Position numbers and translations under genes: made by a program
Source of the DNA: Chloroflexota bacterium
GTDB lineage: Bacteria > Chloroflexota > Anaerolineae > Anaerolineales > Villigracilaceae
DNA: 64,000 nucleotides
Reading direction: 5' to 3'
Assembly (NCBI GenBank): GCA_016191845.1
Contig: JACPVF010000011.1
Location: forward strand, 1 to 64,000
Shown here: positions 1 to 40,027 of the stretch, piece after piece
Layout: each line of letters opens with the position of its first letter
Numbering within the stretch: position 1 is the first letter of the stretch
Notes under the pieces: generated by a model
Seen by the model: only the letters and a program-made list of their open reading frames with translations
What the model was told of the DNA's origin: nothing
Databases searched by the model: none

Positions 1-236
1 ACGAGGTCATCCGCGTGAAGAATGAGGATGCCTTCCAGACAGCGCGTCGCATGGCACGCGAGGAAGGTCTGCTGGTGGGCATCTCGTCGGGAGCGGCGAC
101 CTGGGCGGCCTTGCAGGTGGCGAACCGCGCCGAGAATGCGGGCAAGCTGATCGTGGTGATCATCCCGTCCTTCGGCGAACGCTATCTCTCCACCCCGCTC
201 TTCGCCGACCTGGCCGAGGCGCAGCCAACTTTGTAA
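1..236 (+). CDS. cysK: Cysteine synthase, C-terminal fragment (5' end outside window)
   Basis: The frame is open from the first bases of the window and ends at TAA 234-236, so only the last ~77 residues are present. They match the C-terminus of the PLP-dependent O-acetylserine sulfhydrylase family: the segment [16 protein letters not shown] is the conserved phosphate/PLP-side motif and GERYLST is the typical end-of-domain motif. The enzyme makes cysteine from O-acetylserine and sulfide in the cytoplasm. The next gene, 58 nt downstream on the same strand, is serine O-acetyltransferase, which makes the substrate, so a two-gene cysteine operon is likely. The PLP lysine lies outside the window, so cysK cannot be separated from cysM or cystathionine beta-synthase on this fragment alone. 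Confidence 0.9.
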
Positions 237-294
237 GTCATCCCGCCCCTGGGCGTTTCAACTTGAGGCGCCCAGGGGTAGAAACCGAGAAAGA

Positions 295-999
295 ATGTTC
301 AAGACCATTCACGACGATATTCAGTCCGTTTTGGACCGCGACCCAGCTGCGCGCAACGTGCTGGAAGTGTTGCTTTGCTACCCTGGTCTGCATGCCATCT
401 GGGCGCACCGCATCTCGCACCGTCTGTGGAAAGGCGGATTCAAACTGCTGGCGCGTGGCGTCTCGCAGTTCATGCGCAGCGCGACGGGCATCGAGATCCA
501 CCCTGGTGCGACCATCGGACAGAACTTCTTCATCGACCACGGCATGGGCGTCGTGATTGGTGAGACGGCCGAGGTCGGCAACAATGTGACGCTCTACCAT
601 GGCGTGACATTGGGCGGCACTAGTCTACACAAGACCAAACGGCATCCCACCATCGAGGACCACGTGGTCATCGGCGCAGGCGCCAAGGTGCTGGGGGCCA
701 TCACCATCGGCGCGAACAGCCGCATCGGTGCGAACGCAGTGGTAGTCAAGTCGACGCCGCCCGATTCGGTGGTGGTCGGCGTGCCTGGACAGGTGGTGAT
801 GCGCGACAACCCGTCCCATCTGCCTGAAGAGAAAGCGGATCTCGAACATGGCAAACTGCCCGATACCATCGGCGAGACGCTGGCGGCGCTGATCGCCCAC
901 GTCGAGACGCTGGAGCAACGTGTCAACGGCGGGAGCTACGGCCCCGCCCTGCACGCGCCTGATAAGGGCATCTGGCACTGGGGCGATTTTTCGATCTGA
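295..999 (+). CDS. cysE: Serine O-acetyltransferase
   Basis: This 234-residue protein acetylates L-serine with acetyl-CoA, the committed step of cysteine synthesis. The N-terminal ~65 residues are the short helical cap of the compact bacterial CysE form. A left-handed beta-helix of hexapeptide repeats runs from about residue 65 to 165 ([34 protein letters not shown]). Active-site residues are visible in [12 protein letters not shown] (Asp, His) and YHGVTLGG (His). The start ATG at 295 is preceded by the purine-rich GAGAAAGA. It follows cysK by 58 nt. The C-terminal ~45 residues after the helix are a low-conservation tail, somewhat longer than the CysK-binding tail of enterobacterial CysE, and the protein ends in Ile (GDFSI) as expected for docking into CysK. 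Confidence 0.95.
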
Positions 1000-1099
1000 A
1001 AATTGTTTTGTGAGAGTCTTTAGCACTCTTAAGCTGGATTTAGACCAGTCGTGATTCGTGTTTTTTCTTTTATCCAAAGAACAAAGAGTAGGATTTAAA

Positions 1100-1146
1100 T
1101 TACGAGGTTGCTTCGTCGTCGCTTCATTCCTCCTCGCAACGACATG
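1100..1146. repeat. Dispersed GAGG...CCTC repeat in the cysE-ABC intergenic space
   Basis: The gap between cysE and the convergent ABC gene contains a segment that on the minus strand reads GTCGTTGCGAGGAGGAATGA and continues with GAAGCGACGACGAAGCAACC. It resembles the GTCATTGCGAGGAGCGAAGC-type short interspersed repeat that I recall from several bacterial genomes. No coding frame is supported in 1000-1150. The rest of the gap shows nothing recognisable. Confidence 0.45.
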
Positions 1147-1150
1147 ATTA

Positions 1151-1184
1151 AACAAGGCCTTCCAGTTGGAAGGCCTTGTTGTTT
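1151..1184. terminator. Bidirectional intrinsic terminator between cysE and the ABC exporter genes
   Basis: A 13-bp perfect inverted repeat (AACAAGGCCTTCC at 1151-1163, loop AGTT, complement at 1168-1180) is followed by GTTTT. It sits between two convergent genes and touches the stop codon of the minus-strand ABC gene at 1184, so it can serve both. Confidence 0.85.
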
Positions 1185-3025
1185 TAGATCGCCAGCCCCT
1201 TGAACTGACTCATATACAGATGGTGGAAGAAGCCCTTCGCTTCGAGCAATTGCTGATGCGTGCCCTGCTCGACGATCTCGCCGTCCTTGATGACGATGAC
1301 CTTGTCCGCGTCGCGGATGGTGGAGAGGCGGTGTGCAATAACGAAGCTGGTGCGGCCTTCCATCAGGCGCAACAGCGCTTTTTGGATGCGCGCCTCGGTG
1401 CGTGTGTCCACGCTGGAGGTGGCTTCGTCGAGGATCAGGATGCTCGGGTCTGCCAGGACGGCGCGGGCAATAGAAAGCAATTGGCGCTGTCCCTGGCTGA
1501 GGTTGGAGGCGCGCTCCGAAAGCCTGGTCTGGTAGCCCTGTGGTAACTGGCGGATGAAATGGTCGGCGTCGGCCAGTTTGGCGGCTTCGATGCATTCGTC
1601 GTCGCTGGCGTCGAGGCGGCCGTAGCGGATGTTTTCCATAACGGTATCGGCAAACAGGAAGGTATCCTGCAAGACGATGCCCAGCTTCTGGCGCAGGTCT
1701 GCTTTGGAGACGTCACGGATGTCGCAGCCGTCGATGCTGATGCCTCCGCCGTTGACCTCGTAGAAACGCGTCAGCAGGTTGATGATGGTGGTCTTGCCCG
1801 CGCCCGTCGGCCCGACCAGCGCAATGGTCTGCCCAGCCTTCGCTTCGAGAGTCATGTTCTTGATGATGGGATGCTCAGGCTGATAGCCGAAGGAAACGCC
1901 CGAGAACTGGACCTCTCCTTTAACGGGAACAGGCAGCGGGGCGTCGGCGGCCTTGTCCACTTCGGCGGGCGTGTCGATGACTTCGAAGACACGCTCCGCG
2001 CCCGCCAGCGCCGCCTGGATCGAGTTGTACATGTTGGCCAGTTGGCGCAGCGGCTGGATGAAGTTCTGGGCGTAGGCAATGAAGGTGGCGATCATGCCGA
2101 CGGTGACGAGACCCTGCAGGGCGAGATATCCGCCCAGCCCCACCAGCACGATGACGAAGAAATTGCCAAGCACATTGGTCAGCGGCATGAGCATCAACGC
2201 GTAGGTGTTGGCGTACACGCCCGCCGCATAGACCTTCTGATTGCTGGCGCGGAAACGCTCGATGGCAGTCTCGCTGCGGCCGAAGGCCTTTACCACACGC
2301 TGGCCGCTGATAGATTCTTCCATCACGCCGTTAATCTCACCCAGTTCCTTTTGCAGGTCGCGGAAGCCTTTGCGGGTGTATTTGGCCACGAACTGCGTGA
2401 ACCAGAACATGATCGGAACCACCAGCAACGCAGCCAGCGCCAGCCACGGGTTAAGCACGAACATGGCAATGACGATGCCGACCAGCGAGATGACACTGGC
2501 CACCAGCGAAACCACATTTTGAGACACGGCCTGATTGATGGCGTCGATGTCGTTGGTCAGGCGGCTCATCAACTCGCCCGCGGTGTGACTGTCGAAGAAT
2601 GTGATGGACAGTTTCTGCAAATGCTCGAACAGGTCGCGGCGCAGGCGTCGCAGTGCATCCTGCGAGATACGCGCCATCAGCCAGCTCGACGTGGCCTGAA
2701 AGGCGTTGTCGAACAGATAGGCGGTCAGCAGCAGCAGCGCCAGTTGCGGCAGGCCATCGATCTGTCGGGTGGAAATATATTGGTCGATGGCACGCCCGAT
2801 CAGATACGGTTCGAGCAATCCCAGCAGGATGTAAGCCAGCACAAAACTCAACACCAGCATCAGTGTGTATTTATATGGGCTGAGATACAGGGCCAGACGG
2901 ATCAGCGCGCGGCGTGGGTCGCCCGCCTTCTCGATCTTTCCCATGCGCATCCCGCCACCGCGTCCCATGGCGGCACGGATGGTGGACATGTTGCGGTCGT
3001 TCGCAGGAGCAGACTGGTTACTCAT
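1184..3025 (-). CDS. ABC exporter half-transporter, catalytically intact subunit (TM288-like)
   Basis: A 613-residue half-transporter: cytoplasmic N-tail (1-40), six-helix transmembrane domain (~40-340), and a nucleotide-binding domain (~370-610). The NBD has Walker A GPTGAGKTT, a signature written LSQGQRQ rather than LSGGQ, Walker B ILILDEATSSVD with the catalytic Glu, and switch His in VIAHRLST. It therefore supplies the consensus ATPase residues, while its LSQGQ signature serves the degenerate site. It overlaps the upstream partner gene by 4 nt (ATGA), which suggests translational coupling into a heterodimer. Such pairs (TM287/288, BmrCD, LmrCD) export lipophilic drugs or lipids from the inner leaflet. 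The substrate cannot be told from sequence. It is the last gene of the marR-led efflux operon. Confidence 0.93.
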   Translation of the reverse strand: MSNQSAPANDRNMSTIRAAMGRGGGMRMGKIEKAGDPRRALIRLALYLSPYKYTLMLVLSFVLAYILLGLLEPYLIGRAIDQYISTRQIDGLPQLALLLLTAYLFDNAFQATSSWLMARISQDALRRLRRDLFEHLQKLSITFFDSHTAGELMSRLTNDIDAINQAVSQNVVSLVASVISLVGIVIAMFVLNPWLALAALLVVPIMFWFTQFVAKYTRKGFRDLQKELGEINGVMEESISGQRVVKAFGRSETAIERFRASNQKVYAAGVYANTYALMLMPLTNVLGNFFVIVLVGLGGYLALQGLVTVGMIATFIAYAQNFIQPLRQLANMYNSIQAALAGAERVFEVIDTPAEVDKAADAPLPVPVKGEVQFSGVSFGYQPEHPIIKNMTLEAKAGQTIALVGPTGAGKTTIINLLTRFYEVNGGGISIDGCDIRDVSKADLRQKLGIVLQDTFLFADTVMENIRYGRLDASDDECIEAAKLADADHFIRQLPQGYQTRLSERASNLSQGQRQLLSIARAVLADPSILILDEATSSVDTRTEARIQKALLRLMEGRTSFVIAHRLSTIRDADKVIVIKDGEIVEQGTHQQLLEAKGFFHHLYMSQFKGLAI

Positions 3026-4773
3026 TCGGCCTCCAGCTTCACGCCTTCGCCAAGCTGTGAGGCATAGATCTCCTGATACACGGGGCTGTTCTGCATCAAC
3101 TCACCATGCGTGCCCTGGGCCACAATTTTGCCTTCATCCACCACCACGATTTTGTCGGCGTGCAGCACCGTGCTGATGCGCTGTGCCACCACGAAGCTGG
3201 TGGTATCTTTCATCCACATTTTCATCGCGTCCTGAATTTTCGTTTCTGTCTCAACATCGACCGAGCTAGTGCTGTCGTCGAGGATCAAAATGTCGGGCTG
3301 CAGCAGGAGCGCGCGCGCAATGGCAATACGTTGCTTCTGTCCGCCTGAGAGGTTCACGCCGCGCTCTTCGATGCGCGTCTCGTATCCGCTCGACAGCCCC
3401 ATGATAAAGTCGTGCGCCTGCGCTGCTTTGGCGGCAGCCATCACTTCATCGTCGCTGGCCTCAGGCCGCCCGTAGCGGATGTTGTCCCGCACCGTGCCCG
3501 AGAACAGGATCGTCTCCTGCGGCACGATGCCCACGTGCTTGAGCAGTTCACTCTGCGGCACATCGCGCACGTCCGTGCCATTCCAGGCGATCCTTCCAGC
3601 GGCCACGTCATAGAAACGCGGCACCAGGTTGACGATGGACGATTTTCCTGCTCCCGTCGCACCGAGGATGGCGACCGTCTGGCCTGGTTCTGCAACCAGG
3701 TCCACGCCATTCAGCACCAGCCCATCGTTGGTCCCGTTATAGTGGAAGTTCACGTTCTCGAAGATTACCCGTTTCCCCCGCCCATCAGGCAAAGTCGTCG
3801 GACGAGCGATATCCTGCACTTCTGGCACCTCATCCAGCACCTCATTGATGCGCTCCGCCGAAGCGGTCGCTGCTGCAACGACATTCGCCAGCATCACCAT
3901 GATCCCCAGCGGACCCATTGTGGTCTGCAGGTAGTTGATGAAGGCCACGATCTGCCCCACCGAAACGCCGCCTTTGACGGATTGAATTCCGCCCGCCCAG
4001 ATGACGATCACCATGCCGATGTTGACGAAGATGCTCATGGCGGGTGAAAGCGTAGCCATGAAGCGCATCACGCGGATGTTGCGGTCGGTGTAGTCCTCGT
4101 TGGCTTCGGCGAAGCGACCCGCCTCATGGTCCGCGCGCACGAAGGCCTTGACCAGCCGCACGCCCGCGATGTTCTCCTGCAAGACCGTGTTCAGGCGGTC
4201 CAGCTTCTTTTGGACGGTCATGAACAACGGTCCCATGCGCGAGACAAAGAACACGATCACCACGCTGGTGGCCAGCAGCACAGGCATGACCATCATCGCT
4301 AGGCGGCTGTCCGTGACGAACATCAGGATTAGGCTGCCCAACATCAACAGCGGCGCGCGCGTGCCAATGCGCAGCGAGACCTGCACCATGCGTTGAAAGG
4401 CAGTCGTATCGCTCGACAGGCGCACCATCAACTGGCCTGTGTTCAGGTGATCCAGGTTTCCAAACGAGAAGGACTGGATCTTCAGGAACAGCGCCTCACG
4501 CAGATCACGCGCCACGCTCTCACCGACCTGAATGGAAAACATATTGTTAGCCAATGCAAACAGGGTCTGCAACAGGGAAATGACCAGCATGATGATGGTC
4601 GTCGTGATAACCACTTGCATGTTCTTGCCATTGATGCCCTGATCGATGATGCGTTGGATCAGCCTGGGAATCGTCAAGTCGATGGCGATGACCAGCAGCA
4701 GAAAGACCAGCGACACCAGACTTCGCCGCCAATAAGGTTTTACAAAATGTAGAAGTTTCTTTATATGGTTCAT
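3022..4773 (-). CDS. ABC exporter half-transporter, degenerate-site subunit (TM287-like)
   Basis: A 583-residue half-transporter with a six-helix membrane domain (~15-310) and a C-terminal NBD. Walker A is GATGAGKSS (~residue 370) and the signature is canonical LSGGQKQR, but the Walker B end reads LILDDSTSSVD, with Asp in place of the catalytic Glu, and the switch region reads VVAQRIST, with Gln in place of His. Asp plus Gln is the pattern of the degenerate site in heterodimeric exporters such as TM287. Its own LSGGQ completes the active site of the partner encoded at 1184-3025, with which it overlaps by 4 nt. The start ATG at 4773 lies 27 nt after the MFS stop codon, so it is cotranscribed with the MFS gene and regulator. 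Confidence 0.93.
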   Translation of the reverse strand: MNHIKKLLHFVKPYWRRSLVSLVFLLLVIAIDLTIPRLIQRIIDQGINGKNMQVVITTTIIMLVISLLQTLFALANNMFSIQVGESVARDLREALFLKIQSFSFGNLDHLNTGQLMVRLSSDTTAFQRMVQVSLRIGTRAPLLMLGSLILMFVTDSRLAMMVMPVLLATSVVIVFFVSRMGPLFMTVQKKLDRLNTVLQENIAGVRLVKAFVRADHEAGRFAEANEDYTDRNIRVMRFMATLSPAMSIFVNIGMVIVIWAGGIQSVKGGVSVGQIVAFINYLQTTMGPLGIMVMLANVVAAATASAERINEVLDEVPEVQDIARPTTLPDGRGKRVIFENVNFHYNGTNDGLVLNGVDLVAEPGQTVAILGATGAGKSSIVNLVPRFYDVAAGRIAWNGTDVRDVPQSELLKHVGIVPQETILFSGTVRDNIRYGRPEASDDEVMAAAKAAQAHDFIMGLSSGYETRIEERGVNLSGGQKQRIAIARALLLQPDILILDDSTSSVDVETETKIQDAMKMWMKDTTSFVVAQRISTVLHADKIVVVDEGKIVAQGTHGELMQNSPVYQEIYASQLGEGVKLEAE

Positions 4774-10182: not shown

Positions 10183-10222
10183 TGGGAAGTGGGGAATTGA
10201 CAATGGGGAATCGGTAATTTGG
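10183..10222. repeat. GGGAATTG/GGGAATCG-type degenerate tandem repeat
   Basis: Directly after the glnS stop, short units such as TGGGAAGTGGGGAATTGACA and TGGGGAATCGG follow one another. The same unit type recurs as a longer tract inside the dehydrogenase gene at 37907-37953. Confidence 0.5.
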
Positions 10223-35609: not shown

Positions 35610-38600
35610 TTAAGCGGAATTTAGCGCCTTCTTTAACATTCGATCCACCAGCACGATGGGATGCGTGGTTTTGACCTTCGCGCCCTGCTCGATCTGCAAG
35701 CGGCAGGCCGAACCCGTGGACACCACCTCCCCCAAATTCGCAGTAGATATTTTCGTCGACAAGTTTCCATCCGCTTGCGCATTTGGGGGAGGCAGGAGGG
35801 GGCGAATCGACGGCAACAGCTTCAACTCCCCTACTTTCATGGAGAGGTCGTAATGCTCGGCTTCATAGCCGAAGGTGCCTGCCATGCCGCAGCAGCCCGC
35901 GTCGCTGAGCTCGACGTCGTAGCCGCACTGACGCAGCACGGCCATCGTCGCGGCGGGACCTGTGGGCTGGCCGTCGTCCGCGGCGGCTTCGGCGCGTTGA
36001 TGGCAGTGAGGGTGGAAGAGGAGTTTGCGCGGCGGGCCATCTGTCTGGTTGGTAATTCCATTTTTCTTTTCTAAATTGCCTACGAGCATCCCATTAAACT
36101 CAGGGGATCGCAGCAGCCACTCGTCCAGCAGCCAGATGCGGCGGGTGATGGCGGTCAGGTCTTCGGCGCGGGTTGGGAGCAGGTCACGGTAATCGTGTTT
36201 GAGGCAGTACAGGTCGGGCGGCTCCAGGCCGACGATGGCGGTTTCGTTGTTGGGAGCAAGATGATGAATGGTGGTCAGCACACGTTCGGCGTGATGACGG
36301 GCGGCGTCGATGAAGCCTTTCGAGAGCAGCGATGCCCCCGCCCCAACCACGGGGATGACCTGCACGTCCAGGCCCAGGCGGGAAAGCACGTCGAAGGCGG
36401 CCTGCTCGATCTGCGGCTCGATGTAGCGCGTGAAGGCGTCGGAAAGGAAAAGGATGCGACGGGTCGAGTTGGTAACTCGACCTACGTGCGCGCGCTTCGT
36501 CGAATACTTCGGGAAGGGGCGCTCGGTCGTGATGCCTGTGACCTTCGCGATCAACTTGCGGGTCGGGTCAAAGCCCATGAGGACATTGGCCAGCGGCGCG
36601 ATGGGCGACATCAGCGCCGAGACGGTGTGGAAGTAGCCGAACAGATAATCGCGCAACGGTCGGCGATGCGACTTGTAATACTCGTCCATGAAGGCGAACT
36701 TCAACTTGGCCATGTCCACGCCCGAGGGACATTCGGCTTTGCAGCCTTTGCAGGCGAGGCATAAGTCGAGAGAAGCGAAGGTCTCATTTTCAATGGGACG
36801 CTGACGAGCGCGGATGAACGCGGATTCTTTTTTCTCTTCAGCGTTTTCCGCGTGGATCCGCGTCCCATAGCCTGAGATCATCGCCCGCAACAGATTGGCC
36901 CGTCCCCGTGTGGCATTCTGCTCCTCGCGCGTAGCCTGGAAAGACGGACACATCACACCGTCGAACTTGCGACACACGCCCTGTCCGTTGCATTGCTCGA
37001 TGGCATTGGCCAGGCCGTTCTGGCGCGAGAAGTCGAGCGGCGTGAGCCAGACCTGGGTGCGATAGTCCAGACCGTAGCGCAGGTTGACGTCCATGCGCGG
37101 GGCGTCGATCAGCTTGCCAGGGTTGAGGATCCGCTCGGGGTCAGCGGCCAGTTTGAGGGTCCGAAAGGCGTGGAGCACTTCGTCGCCGTAGATATTCCCC
37201 AGCCATTCCGAATGCGACAGTCCGTCGCCGTGTTCGCTGCTCATCGACCCGCCCAGCGAGATGGTCAGCGCCAGCACGGCCTCCGAGATGGCGCGCAACT
37301 CGCGCACCTGCGTCTTGAGGTCGAGGATGGGTCGAATGTGCAGGCAGCCCGCCGAGGCGTGCGCGTAAAACTCGGCCTGCGTATGATACTCGTCGAGGAT
37401 GTGCTGCACGCCGCGCACGAATCCGCCGAGGCGCTCGACGGGGATGGCGCAGTCTTCGATGAAGGCCACGGTCTTGGCGTCGCCCGTGTGCGAGGCCAGG
37501 ATACCCAGCCCCATCTTGCGGATGTTCCAGATGCGCGACTGATCCTGAGCGGATTCGGCCAGCACGTCGGGATGCAGCGCCAGCGCCCGCTCCTTCAGGA
37601 CCTCAGGCTGGTTGCCGCTAAACTCGACCACGAGCAACGCTTCAGAGTCGCCCGCCAAAATCTGCGCCTGAGCCGCATATGCAGGGACGGCCATCGCCAA
37701 ACGGACAATGTTGCGCGAGATGAGCTCGATGGCACTGGGACGATGTTCGAGCAGGCGCGGCACATCGTCGCAGGCGGCGGCATGCGAGTCATAGTTGAGG
37801 ACGGCCAGGATGGTGTGCTTCGGCTTGGGCACCAGGTTGAGCGTGGCGCGGCGGATGACGGCCAGGGTGCCTTCGGAGCCAGCGAGGAGAGGAGCGAGGT
37901 TGAGAGATTGGGAATTGGAAATCGGGAATTGGGAATCGGGAATTGGGGGTTGGTAGACGGTCCACCGTCCACGGTCCTCGGTCCATTGCGGCGGGGTGGA
38001 TGGCGACCAGGGCAGCAGATAATTGAGTCGATAGCCTGCCGAGTTGCGCCAGGTGGCGGGATAGTGTTGGCGAATCGCGGTGGCGTATTTCTCTCGAATA
38101 TCGAGGCAGGAAAGAAGGAAAGAGGAAAGAAGACTTTCTTCTTTTTTCTTTCCTCTTACATCTTCCACATTTAATTCTTTCCACGTCGCGGTGCTTCCAT
38201 CCGCCATGACCACATCCGCTGCAAGGAGATGATCCGCCGTCATGCCGTAAAGGATGGAGTGCGCGCCTGTGGCGTTGTTGCCGATGACGCCGCCCACGGT
38301 GGCGCGTTCTGCCGAGGCGGGGTCGGGGCCGAATTGCAGTCCATGTTTGGCGGCGGCCTTGTTGAGCGCGGCGAGGATCACGCCGGGTTCGACCGTGGCC
38401 GTGCGCGCCTCGGGATCGACCTCGAGAATGTGGTCCAGCCAGCGCGAGACATCCACGATCAGCGCTTCGCCGACGGCTTGCCCCGCCAGCGAGGACCCTG
38501 ACCCACGTGGCAGGATGGGCGTCTTGTACTTGGCGGCCAGCTCAACCACGGCTTGCAGGTCATCCTGGTCCCGCGGAATGACCACACCCAGCGGCTCGAT

Positions 38601-38711
38601 CTGGTAAATGGACGCATCGGTGCTGTACAGGATGCGCGAGGCCAGGTCCGTGCGGACGCTGCCTGCGATGGATTTTTTCAATTCGGCGAGAAGGTCAGGG
38701 GAGAGGGTCAT
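35610..38711 (-). CDS. YdiJ-like FAD/Fe-S dehydrogenase (D-2-hydroxyacid type) carrying in-frame repeat insertions
   Basis: 1033 residues fusing an FAD-binding PCMH domain (~30-275: ILPRGSGSSLAGQAVG, GGVIGNNATGAHSILYG, LLAGSEGTLAV), an FAD-linked oxidase C-terminal domain (~290-545: STSEHGDG-like MSSEHGDGLSHSEW, RILNPGKLI), a ferredoxin-like cluster site (CNGQGVCRKFDGVMCPSF; CLACKGCKAECPSG) and a CCG heterodisulfide-reductase-type C-terminus (HPHCHQRAE, DAGCCGMAG). This is the layout of E. coli YdiJ (about 1018 residues), a D-2-hydroxyglutarate dehydrogenase, so oxidation of a D-2-hydroxyacid is likely. Five segments, listed separately, consist of palindromic or tandem repeat DNA read in frame and lie between conserved blocks. 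ATG 38711 lies 6 nt after TACAAT. Confidence 0.9.
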   Translation of the reverse strand: MTLSPDLLAELKKSIAGSVRTDLASRILYSTDASIYQIEPLGVVIPRDQDDLQAVVELAAKYKTPILPRGSGSSLAGQAVGEALIVDVSRWLDHILEVDPEARTATVEPGVILAALNKAAAKHGLQFGPDPASAERATVGGVIGNNATGAHSILYGMTADHLLAADVVMADGSTATWKELNVEDVRGKKKEESLLSSFLLSCLDIREKYATAIRQHYPATWRNSAGYRLNYLLPWSPSTPPQWTEDRGRWTVYQPPIPDSQFPISNSQSLNLAPLLAGSEGTLAVIRRATLNLVPKPKHTILAVLNYDSHAAACDDVPRLLEHRPSAIELISRNIVRLAMAVPAYAAQAQILAGDSEALLVVEFSGNQPEVLKERALALHPDVLAESAQDQSRIWNIRKMGLGILASHTGDAKTVAFIEDCAIPVERLGGFVRGVQHILDEYHTQAEFYAHASAGCLHIRPILDLKTQVRELRAISEAVLALTISLGGSMSSEHGDGLSHSEWLGNIYGDEVLHAFRTLKLAADPERILNPGKLIDAPRMDVNLRYGLDYRTQVWLTPLDFSRQNGLANAIEQCNGQGVCRKFDGVMCPSFQATREEQNATRGRANLLRAMISGYGTRIHAENAEEKKESAFIRARQRPIENETFASLDLCLACKGCKAECPSGVDMAKLKFAFMDEYYKSHRRPLRDYLFGYFHTVSALMSPIAPLANVLMGFDPTRKLIAKVTGITTERPFPKYSTKRAHVGRVTNSTRRILFLSDAFTRYIEPQIEQAAFDVLSRLGLDVQVIPVVGAGASLLSKGFIDAARHHAERVLTTIHHLAPNNETAIVGLEPPDLYCLKHDYRDLLPTRAEDLTAITRRIWLLDEWLLRSPEFNGMLVGNLEKKNGITNQTDGPPRKLLFHPHCHQRAEAAADDGQPTGPAATMAVLRQCGYDVELSDAGCCGMAGTFGYEAEHYDLSMKVGELKLLPSIRPLLPPPNAQADGNLSTKISTANLGEVVSTGSACRLQIEQGAKVKTTHPIVLVDRMLKKALNSA
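35726..35792. repeat. 67-bp inverted-repeat element inside the dehydrogenase gene (residues ~973-995)
   Basis: CCTCCCCCAAATTCGCA (35726-35742) and TGCGCATTTGGGGGAGG (35776-35792) are terminal inverted repeats matching at 16 of 17 positions, enclosing 33 bp. It is read in frame as LPPPNAQADGNLSTKISTA plus NLGE, between KLLPSIR and the conserved VVSTGSACR. Confidence 0.7.
36461..36485. repeat. GTAGGTC-type hairpin repeat inside the dehydrogenase gene (residues ~742-750)
   Basis: GGTCGAGTT (36462-36470), loop GGT, AACTCGACC (36474-36482), then TAC. On the minus strand it begins GTAGGTC, as do the intergenic repeats at 10273 and 13781. It is translated as VGRVTNST. Confidence 0.65.
36793..36868. 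repeat. 76-bp inverted-repeat element inside the dehydrogenase gene (residues ~615-640)
   Basis: Perfect 9-bp ends ATGGGACGC (36793-36801) / GCGTCCCAT (36860-36868) enclose GCGGATGAACGCGGATTC and GCGTGGATCCGCG, units I associate with intergenic CCGCGTTCATCCGCG-type repeats. Read in frame as GTRIHAENAEEKKESAFIRA followed by RQRP, between the two Fe-S motifs. Confidence 0.65.
37907..37984. repeat. GGGAATTG/GGGAATCG tandem tract plus GGTCCACGG units inside the dehydrogenase gene
   Basis: 37907-37953 is built of GATTGGGAATTGGAAATCGG-like units, the same type as at 10183-10222. 37959-37984 adds GGTCCACCGTCCACGGTCC units. Read in frame as TEDRGRWTVYQPPIPDSQF followed by PISNSQ, directly before the conserved LAPLLAGSEGT. 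Confidence 0.65.
38109..38157. repeat. GGAAAGAA-type inverted repeat inside the dehydrogenase gene (residues ~185-201)
   Basis: AAGAGGAAAGAA (38120-38131) and TTCTTTCCTCTT (38146-38157) are perfect 12-bp inverted repeats, with further GGAAAGAAGG units before them. Read in frame as VRGKKKEESLLSSFLLSCL. Confidence 0.6.
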
Positions 38712-39754: not shown

Positions 39755-40027
39755 TGCCAACTAAGTTTTGGTGCCTGCCAATTCATTTGGGAGGCATACC
39801 AATAAAGTCAGGATGCTTACCGACTAAACCAGTATGCTCACCGACTAAATAAGTGGCCGTATCAAATAAAAAAGTAGCTTTACTGACTAAATCAGTAAGA
39901 CCATCGACAAAACTAGTCTGCCTGCCAACTAAATCAGCAGGCTTACTGACAAAATCAGTGACCCTACTGACTAAACCAGAAAGCGTACTGATCAAGTCAG
40001 TACGCCTACCGACCAAACAAGTGACTG
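39755..40027. repeat. Array of 13 tandem 21-bp units
   Basis: Thirteen consecutive units of exactly 21 bp, consensus TACCGACTAAATCAGTANGC plus one base, vary in sequence but keep strict length. Because 21 is a multiple of three, the array is open on both strands. The minus-strand frame (ATG 40040 after GGAAGGGGGG, to 39783; 85 codons) reads as heptads of the form LVGRxTD / FVSKxAD; a plus-strand frame (39853-40068) reads as LLTKSVx heptads. Whether either is translated is unknown. The array fills most of the gap between the lipoprotein and the UroD-like gene. Confidence 0.8.

Follow-up and report, generated by a model that had tools for sequence, protein, structure and literature searches.

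The gene for a YdiJ-type oxidase, or D-lactate-dehydrogenase-type oxidase, linked to flavin adenine dinucleotide (FAD) and equipped with an iron-sulfur domain carries repeat DNA in frame at five places in a Villigracilaceae genome (Chloroflexota, Anaerolineales), and the same protein loops are filled with other repeats in related genera. The gene lies on a contig stretch of 64,000 nucleotides, the window of this analysis. Very probably, tolerant loops have passively and repeatedly captured dispersed repeats, filtered by selection for frame and fold. Several unrelated small repeats, also present in intergenic DNA, would spread in these genomes: a two-hairpin element named E1, repetitive extragenic palindromes (REPs) with a GTAG tag, the CGCGGATGAACGCGGAT palindrome and heptamer arrays. 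Copies landing in genes would mostly be lost by selection, being out of frame or fold-breaking. The survivors would be those in a surface loop that keep the frame and bring no stop, and they would be translated as disordered loop extensions of enzymes that presumably continue to function. Later they may be overwritten, lengthened or trimmed, with newer insertions overwriting older ones or nesting in them. A few proteins rich in tolerant loops, the YdiJ-type oxidase, a MobA-like protein, a LutB-like protein and a DNA methylase, would for this reason collect repeats again and again.

The Pfam domains FAD_binding_4 (2.8e-43), FAD-oxidase_C (9.1e-49) and Fer4_17 (1.7e-6) were detected in the YdiJ-type protein. 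Its alignment comprised 29 homologues of 47-64 % identity, taken from related genomes. The preliminary description had reported five repeat features in one open frame and taken all of them for in-frame insertions. Measurement of arms, stems and the tandem tract confirmed the features and the frame, and the relatives that it had placed elsewhere in the window, near 10183, 10273 and 13781, were present. The insertion reading held for three of the five segments: 35726-35792 in loop F, 36793-36868 in loop C and 37907-37984 in loop B are net insertions, absent from most of 30 relatives, and account for the extra residues aa 975-992, 619-632 and 247-260, respectively. It did not hold for 36461-36485 and 38120-38157, repeat DNA in length-variable loops of usual size (24 against a median of 25.5 in the relatives, and 26 against 26). 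No conservation of the segments was seen in distant homologues, and relatives of all five exist in the host genome (G000, of which 460 kb were read directly and the remainder searched) or in related genomes. That the inserts are artefacts of assembly or binning, or that the gene is a pseudogene in decay, has next to no probability: most genomes are metagenome-assembled, but the cofactor residues are conserved and the frames open without stops in 27 aligned homologues, and many independent assemblies, among them a single-contig genome (G009), have the same loops filled. The AlphaFold2 model of the protein had a mean predicted local distance difference test (pLDDT) score of 85.5. Only four segments scored below 50, aa 984-989 in loop F, 616-622 in loop C, 243-263 in loop B and 886-889 in a further loop E, and they coincide with the extra segments of the protein. 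A recruitment of the inserts for a protein function, as linker, for interaction or for stability, is very unlikely; inserts are retained across congeners in alaS and lutB, but orthologues differ freely in the sequence, frame, orientation and presence of the inserts, and the very low model confidence is that expected of disorder.

The recurrence of repeats in the same loops was measured in 35 near homologues, in which the six loops make up 12.9 % of the YdiJ-type protein. Ten of 12 inverted repeats with arms of at least 12 bp and 27 of 29 period-7 tracts were located inside these loops, synonymous-codon shuffles yielding totals of about one inverted repeat and about 2.5 period-7 tracts; the control periods 5, 10 and 11 gave zero tracts in these homologues. 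The fillings differ between relatives: L007 and L004 carry a TAACTGA-type heptamer array, L002 and L003 AATATCG palindromes, L002 also GGGAATC heptamers, L005 and L006 SPLPLREG-type palindromes, L009 and L053 CTTCGACGC...CTCAGGGCAAGC and L013 a long inverted repeat; CTTCGAC...CTCAGGG palindromes also occur among the relatives. Within genera, whole blocks differ at the DNA level: L007 and L004, for example, differ by 63 nt in loop A, and L009 and L008 by 24 nt in loop B. L053 belongs to another genus and has an E1 copy with a 43-nt core in the loop and orientation of the window gene; L068, a relative with 78 % identity to L053, has no E1 copy in that loop. Heptamer tracts and inverted repeats were also observed in the same loops of a more distant YdiJ homologue, L094 from a Candidatus Roseilinea metagenome-assembled genome.

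Individually, the segments of the window gene belong to different repeats (Table 1). The core in loop F has 17-nt arms with 94 % complementarity; this E1 copy is read in the gene sense as about PLLPPPNAQADGNLSTKISTANLGEV, its small hairpin side is partly lost, and it extends the loop by 18 aa over the median of the relatives. For the GTAG-tagged hairpin E2, G003 contains a near-identical palindrome and relatives contain many GTAGGTCGGATTGNCAATCCGACC copies, related perfect palindromes of this kind being common in relatives; loop D of L053 holds another GTAGGTCG hairpin. Simple counts of GTAGGTCG...CGACC were uninformative, the backwards control being often higher, and only the perfect palindromes among the matches carry weight as evidence. 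E3, which adds 14 aa to loop C, has other copies in the host genome at C3:129837 (inside a LutB-like gene), C10:252805 and C6:115769. The heptamer array E4 adds 10 aa to loop B and is translated as about TEDRGRWTVYQPPIPDSQFPISNSQ; 37907-37947 is a 7-nt tandem repeat, and the heptamer phase reaches approximately 37984 by eye. Heptamer arrays are not abundant in the host genome, thus the E4 array is not a member of a large family there. The single other exact array of three GGGAATY units in that genome lies in frame in an aroE-like (shikimate dehydrogenase) gene, where it may be a replacement rather than an insertion. Arms related to the purine/pyrimidine palindrome E5 of loop A were found at C10:337891-337932 of the host genome. 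Loop E contains no recognised repeat in the window gene and is filled by palindromes in relatives. Adjoining the YdiJ-type gene, a degenerate 21-nt tandem repeat with ten copies (39803-40017) was observed inside a 101-aa open frame.

Table 1. The YdiJ-type gene of the window with its repeat segments and length-variable loops
Feature	Position	Strand	Characteristics
YdiJ / D-lactate-dehydrogenase-type FAD-linked oxidase with Fe-S domain	35610..38711	-	single open frame, 1033 aa, hosts the inserts
E1-family element, loop F	35708..35803 (core 35726-35792)	+	match to the full covariance model R1, positions 1-96, E 1.1e-9
Loop E, further length-variable loop	36045..36065		7 extra aa (883-889, weak)
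E2, GTAG-tagged REP hairpin GTAGGTCGAGTTACCAACTCGACC, loop D	36462..36485	-	GTAG and perfect 9-bp stem, 3-nt loop
E3 palindrome GGGACGC(T/G)GACGAGCGCGGATGAACGCGGAT...ATCCGCGTCCC, loop C	36793..36868		22-nt arms, 77 % complementary, perfect ends
E4 heptamer array, loop B	37907..37984		GGGAATT/GGGAATC units running into GGTCCAC-type heptamers; Tandem Repeats Finder (TRF) period 7/14
E5 purine/pyrimidine palindrome AGGAAAGAAGGAAAGAGGAAAGAA...TTCTTTCCTCTT, loop A	38108..38157		12-bp perfect arms (38120-38157)

E1 is a dispersed family of elements of about 60, 72 or 96 nt with two hairpins and compensating changes in the stems. The pattern CCTCCCCCAAAT...ATTTGGGGGAGG with variable spacing was present in 16 of 61 genomes, its backwards control in 0 of 61. 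The full layout, derived from 42 copies with flanks, comprises CCCCC(T/A)CC, a small TTCG-type hairpin, a 17-bp inner stem and (C)GGG(T/A)GGGGG. The two sides of the small hairpin vary together (GCC/GGC, GTCC/GGAC, GTCAC/GTGAC). In 19 long copies the inner stem is 98.1 % paired, and none of 500 shuffles reached its covariation score; the outer 12 pairs of this stem do not vary, having been fixed by the search pattern. A covariance model built from 19 copies matched 37 of the 61 related genomes, the majority belonging to the host family; the host genome itself accounts for 12 rows, and single genomes have up to 31 matches, where palindromic copies can match on both strands. A search of ten E1 loci against Rfam gave no match at the gathering score, just sub-threshold microRNA-type matches, and the E1 ends lack a GTAG or CGTC tag. 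The dispersal and the differences between related genomes suggest that E1 is mobile. A REP-associated tyrosine transposase (RAYT) as mover is unsupported: the host genome has one RAYT-like gene (L132, G000:C14:437179-437520, 203 aa), which is not flanked by E1, and its flanks show, by eye, a palindrome that differs from E1 and also from the GTAG-tagged hairpin E2. The long palindrome CAGGTGACAGTCACCTTCAAGGTGACTGTCACCTG lies just upstream of this gene.

At least 17 of 94 measured E1 copies are intragenic and in frame, in at least ten gene families with Pfam-identified products. Besides the window gene, the hosts are HsdM (two genera, same site), an Eco57I-type methylase (two genera, two different sites), the integrase L198, a MobA-like YqeC fusion protein, a glycosyltransferase, a 2Fe-2S/molybdopterin protein, alanyl-tRNA synthetase (alaS), an ATP-binding cassette (ABC) ATPase and an FAD oxidoreductase; a copy in a membrane mannosyltransferase-like protein (L217) and the L053 copy stand outside the length count. 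A length divisible by three was found for 16 of the 17 intragenic copies and for 37 of 77 elsewhere (Fisher p 3e-4), an excess that is partly built in, since intragenic copies are recognised by their open frame. Their lengths fit an element that inserts by itself and duplicates no flanking sequence. The intragenic share is higher among compact copies (11/25 vs 6/69), and the open frames per E1 copy exceed those of dinucleotide shuffles (3.86 vs 3.27, standard deviation 0.12). A congener with 89 % identity over the region retains the alaS copy, and the glycosyltransferase copies of two congeners share their site but point in opposite directions. Not every copy in these counts stands for an independent event. 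Tentatively, E1 may be an actively spreading family shaped for intragenic life: its compact forms would measure 60-63 nt (a multiple of three), have few stops in any frame and enter even essential genes without harm and the same loop repeatedly, in either orientation.

A local origin of the loop repeats, through replication slippage and hairpin-templated copying rather than through movement of elements, appears rather doubtful. The length of the heptamer array differs between the congeners L007 and L004, slippage has been proposed for heptamer repeats in work cited in PMC4679880, and no E1 transposase is known in these genomes. However, E1, E3 and the GTAG palindromes share specific sequence with unrelated places in the same and in related genomes, and the E1 copies of G036 in alaS, 2Fe-2S/molybdenum cofactor (MoCo) and ABC genes are 92-95 % alike.

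Single E1 hosts offered further observations. In the tyrosine recombinase L198 (G001:C28:270344-270438) the copy directly follows the HTFRHSFAT motif; the recombinase is possibly harmed. The Eco57I-type DNA methylase L284 (G017:C26, gene 123-3101) contains, in addition to its E1 copy, at least two more repeat-like in-frame stretches (LTPHPSPAGRGEGGEG, LTPNPSPKGRG). In the single-contig genome G009, hsdM with an E1 copy (C1:2451002-2451097) is situated approximately 7 kb from the YdiJ-type gene (2457744-2460662).

Loops of two other proteins served as controls. Among 30 orthologues of the MobA-like protein the short empty form is the commonest, and E1 is present in six, in several reading frames: the window's genome G000, G007, G017, G024, G036 and, with two copies in tandem, G025. 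The loop is empty in G029, a congener of G007. The LutB-like protein was compared in 24 orthologues. E3-type sequence occupies its loop in G000, G001, G007 and G017; G005 has a perfect GTAG palindrome there, and G009, G014 and G015 have palindromes of another family, with a further repeat nested inside that of G015. The aligned stretch has 31 residues in its shortest form and 49 in the host. An ancient vertical inheritance, with one early repeat in the YdiJ, MobA and LutB loops followed by divergence and loss, would account for the alaS copy common to two congeners, the lutB E3 of G000 and G001 and the AATATCG palindrome of L002 and L003. It is nevertheless improbable, as unrelated repeat families occupy one loop in different genera, the glycosyltransferase copies lie in opposite orientation at one site, and L068, at 78 % identity to L053, has no counterpart of the E1 copy of L053. 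In a fusion gene of serine hydroxymethyltransferase (SHMT) and GcvT (GlyA-GcvT; L050, 14499-17819 of G000:C5), a perfect GTAGGGGCGAAGCATGCTTCGCCCCTAC GTAG palindrome was found in frame between the two domains (C5:15803); it may be a replacement rather than an insertion.

Several points weigh against a repeated capture of mobile repeats. Two of the five segments of the window gene brought no net gain in length, and a part of the divisible-by-three excess follows from the recognition of the copies. Where congeners have a copy at the same site, a single inherited event may in some cases lie behind it. At filled E1 sites no target-site duplication was seen by eye, without a systematic test, and no transposase was linked to E1, an autonomous partner with the same ends not having been searched for. 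Most of the genomes compared are metagenome bins.

In behaviour, the closest analogue of E1 is the family of Rickettsia palindromic elements (RPEs), which are dispersed hairpin formers lying in frame in many unrelated, probably functional genes (Ogata et al. 2000, 2002, summarised in PMC10969869 and PMC3733652). Like RPEs, E1 is palindromic, hairpin-forming and dispersed in many copies, and is located in frame inside unrelated protein genes. The preliminary description had compared the window gene with RPEs, and the picture of dispersed repeats in frame in coding sequence and tolerated in loops is borne out; the likeness claimed is one of working mode, not one of membership. E1 belongs to another phylum, is shorter (approximately 60-100 nt, against about 150 nt for RPEs) and differs by its two covarying hairpins, by several frames and orientations and by loops that it has in common with unrelated repeat families. 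GTAG repeats have been reported in Chloroflexi and intragenic REPs in several lineages (Di Nocera et al. 2013, PMC3733652), with different REPs near the same recB site in two Xanthomonas species (PMC3733652). E2 resembles the GTAG-tagged REPs in its tag beside a short hairpin; in contrast to GTAG/CGTC-tagged REPs, E1 and E3 are untagged, and several families colonise the same loops across genera. Heptamer repeats are known as the short tandemly repeated repetitive (STRR) sequences of cyanobacteria and as the TAACTGA repeats of Beggiatoaceae, some of them inside open frames (PMC4679880). The tandem 7-nt units described here are of similar build, including the TAACTGA type in L004 and L007, but whereas the known repeats are mostly intergenic or at protein ends (PMC4679880), the present arrays lie in internal loops of catalytic proteins.

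Bacterial miniature inverted-repeat transposable elements (MITEs) are short, non-coding, dispersed elements with inverted-repeat ends. E1 has these traits in common with MITEs, but inspection of filled sites by eye gave no indication of a target-site duplication. A single system of mobile palindromes, as initially proposed, is not what the repeats form: at least four unrelated kinds are involved, E1, the GTAG-tagged REP, the CGCGGATGAACGCGGAT palindrome and the heptamer arrays, and their mobility is a likely rather than an observed property. Intragenic REPs, including RPEs, are known in several lineages (PMC3733652, PMC10969869), while no report for Anaerolineales was found in the open literature, in a search without most subscription journals. 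New are the element family and the case of many families in many genera; palindromic repeats within genes are themselves already known.

Palindromes inside coding sequence are usually described as a Rickettsia trait, and REPs within genes as isolated oddities. In the present case a whole bacterial family displays the process in many stages: across many genera, the same loop is seen empty, filled or double-filled, or with its repeat reversed or eroded. Since so many stages are visible, it becomes testable by what means the elements move, how frequently selfish DNA turns into protein and which protein loops take up new sequence. The loops also provide a practical map of insertion-tolerant sites in alanyl-tRNA synthetase (AlaRS), MobA-like, LutB-like and YdiJ-type proteins.

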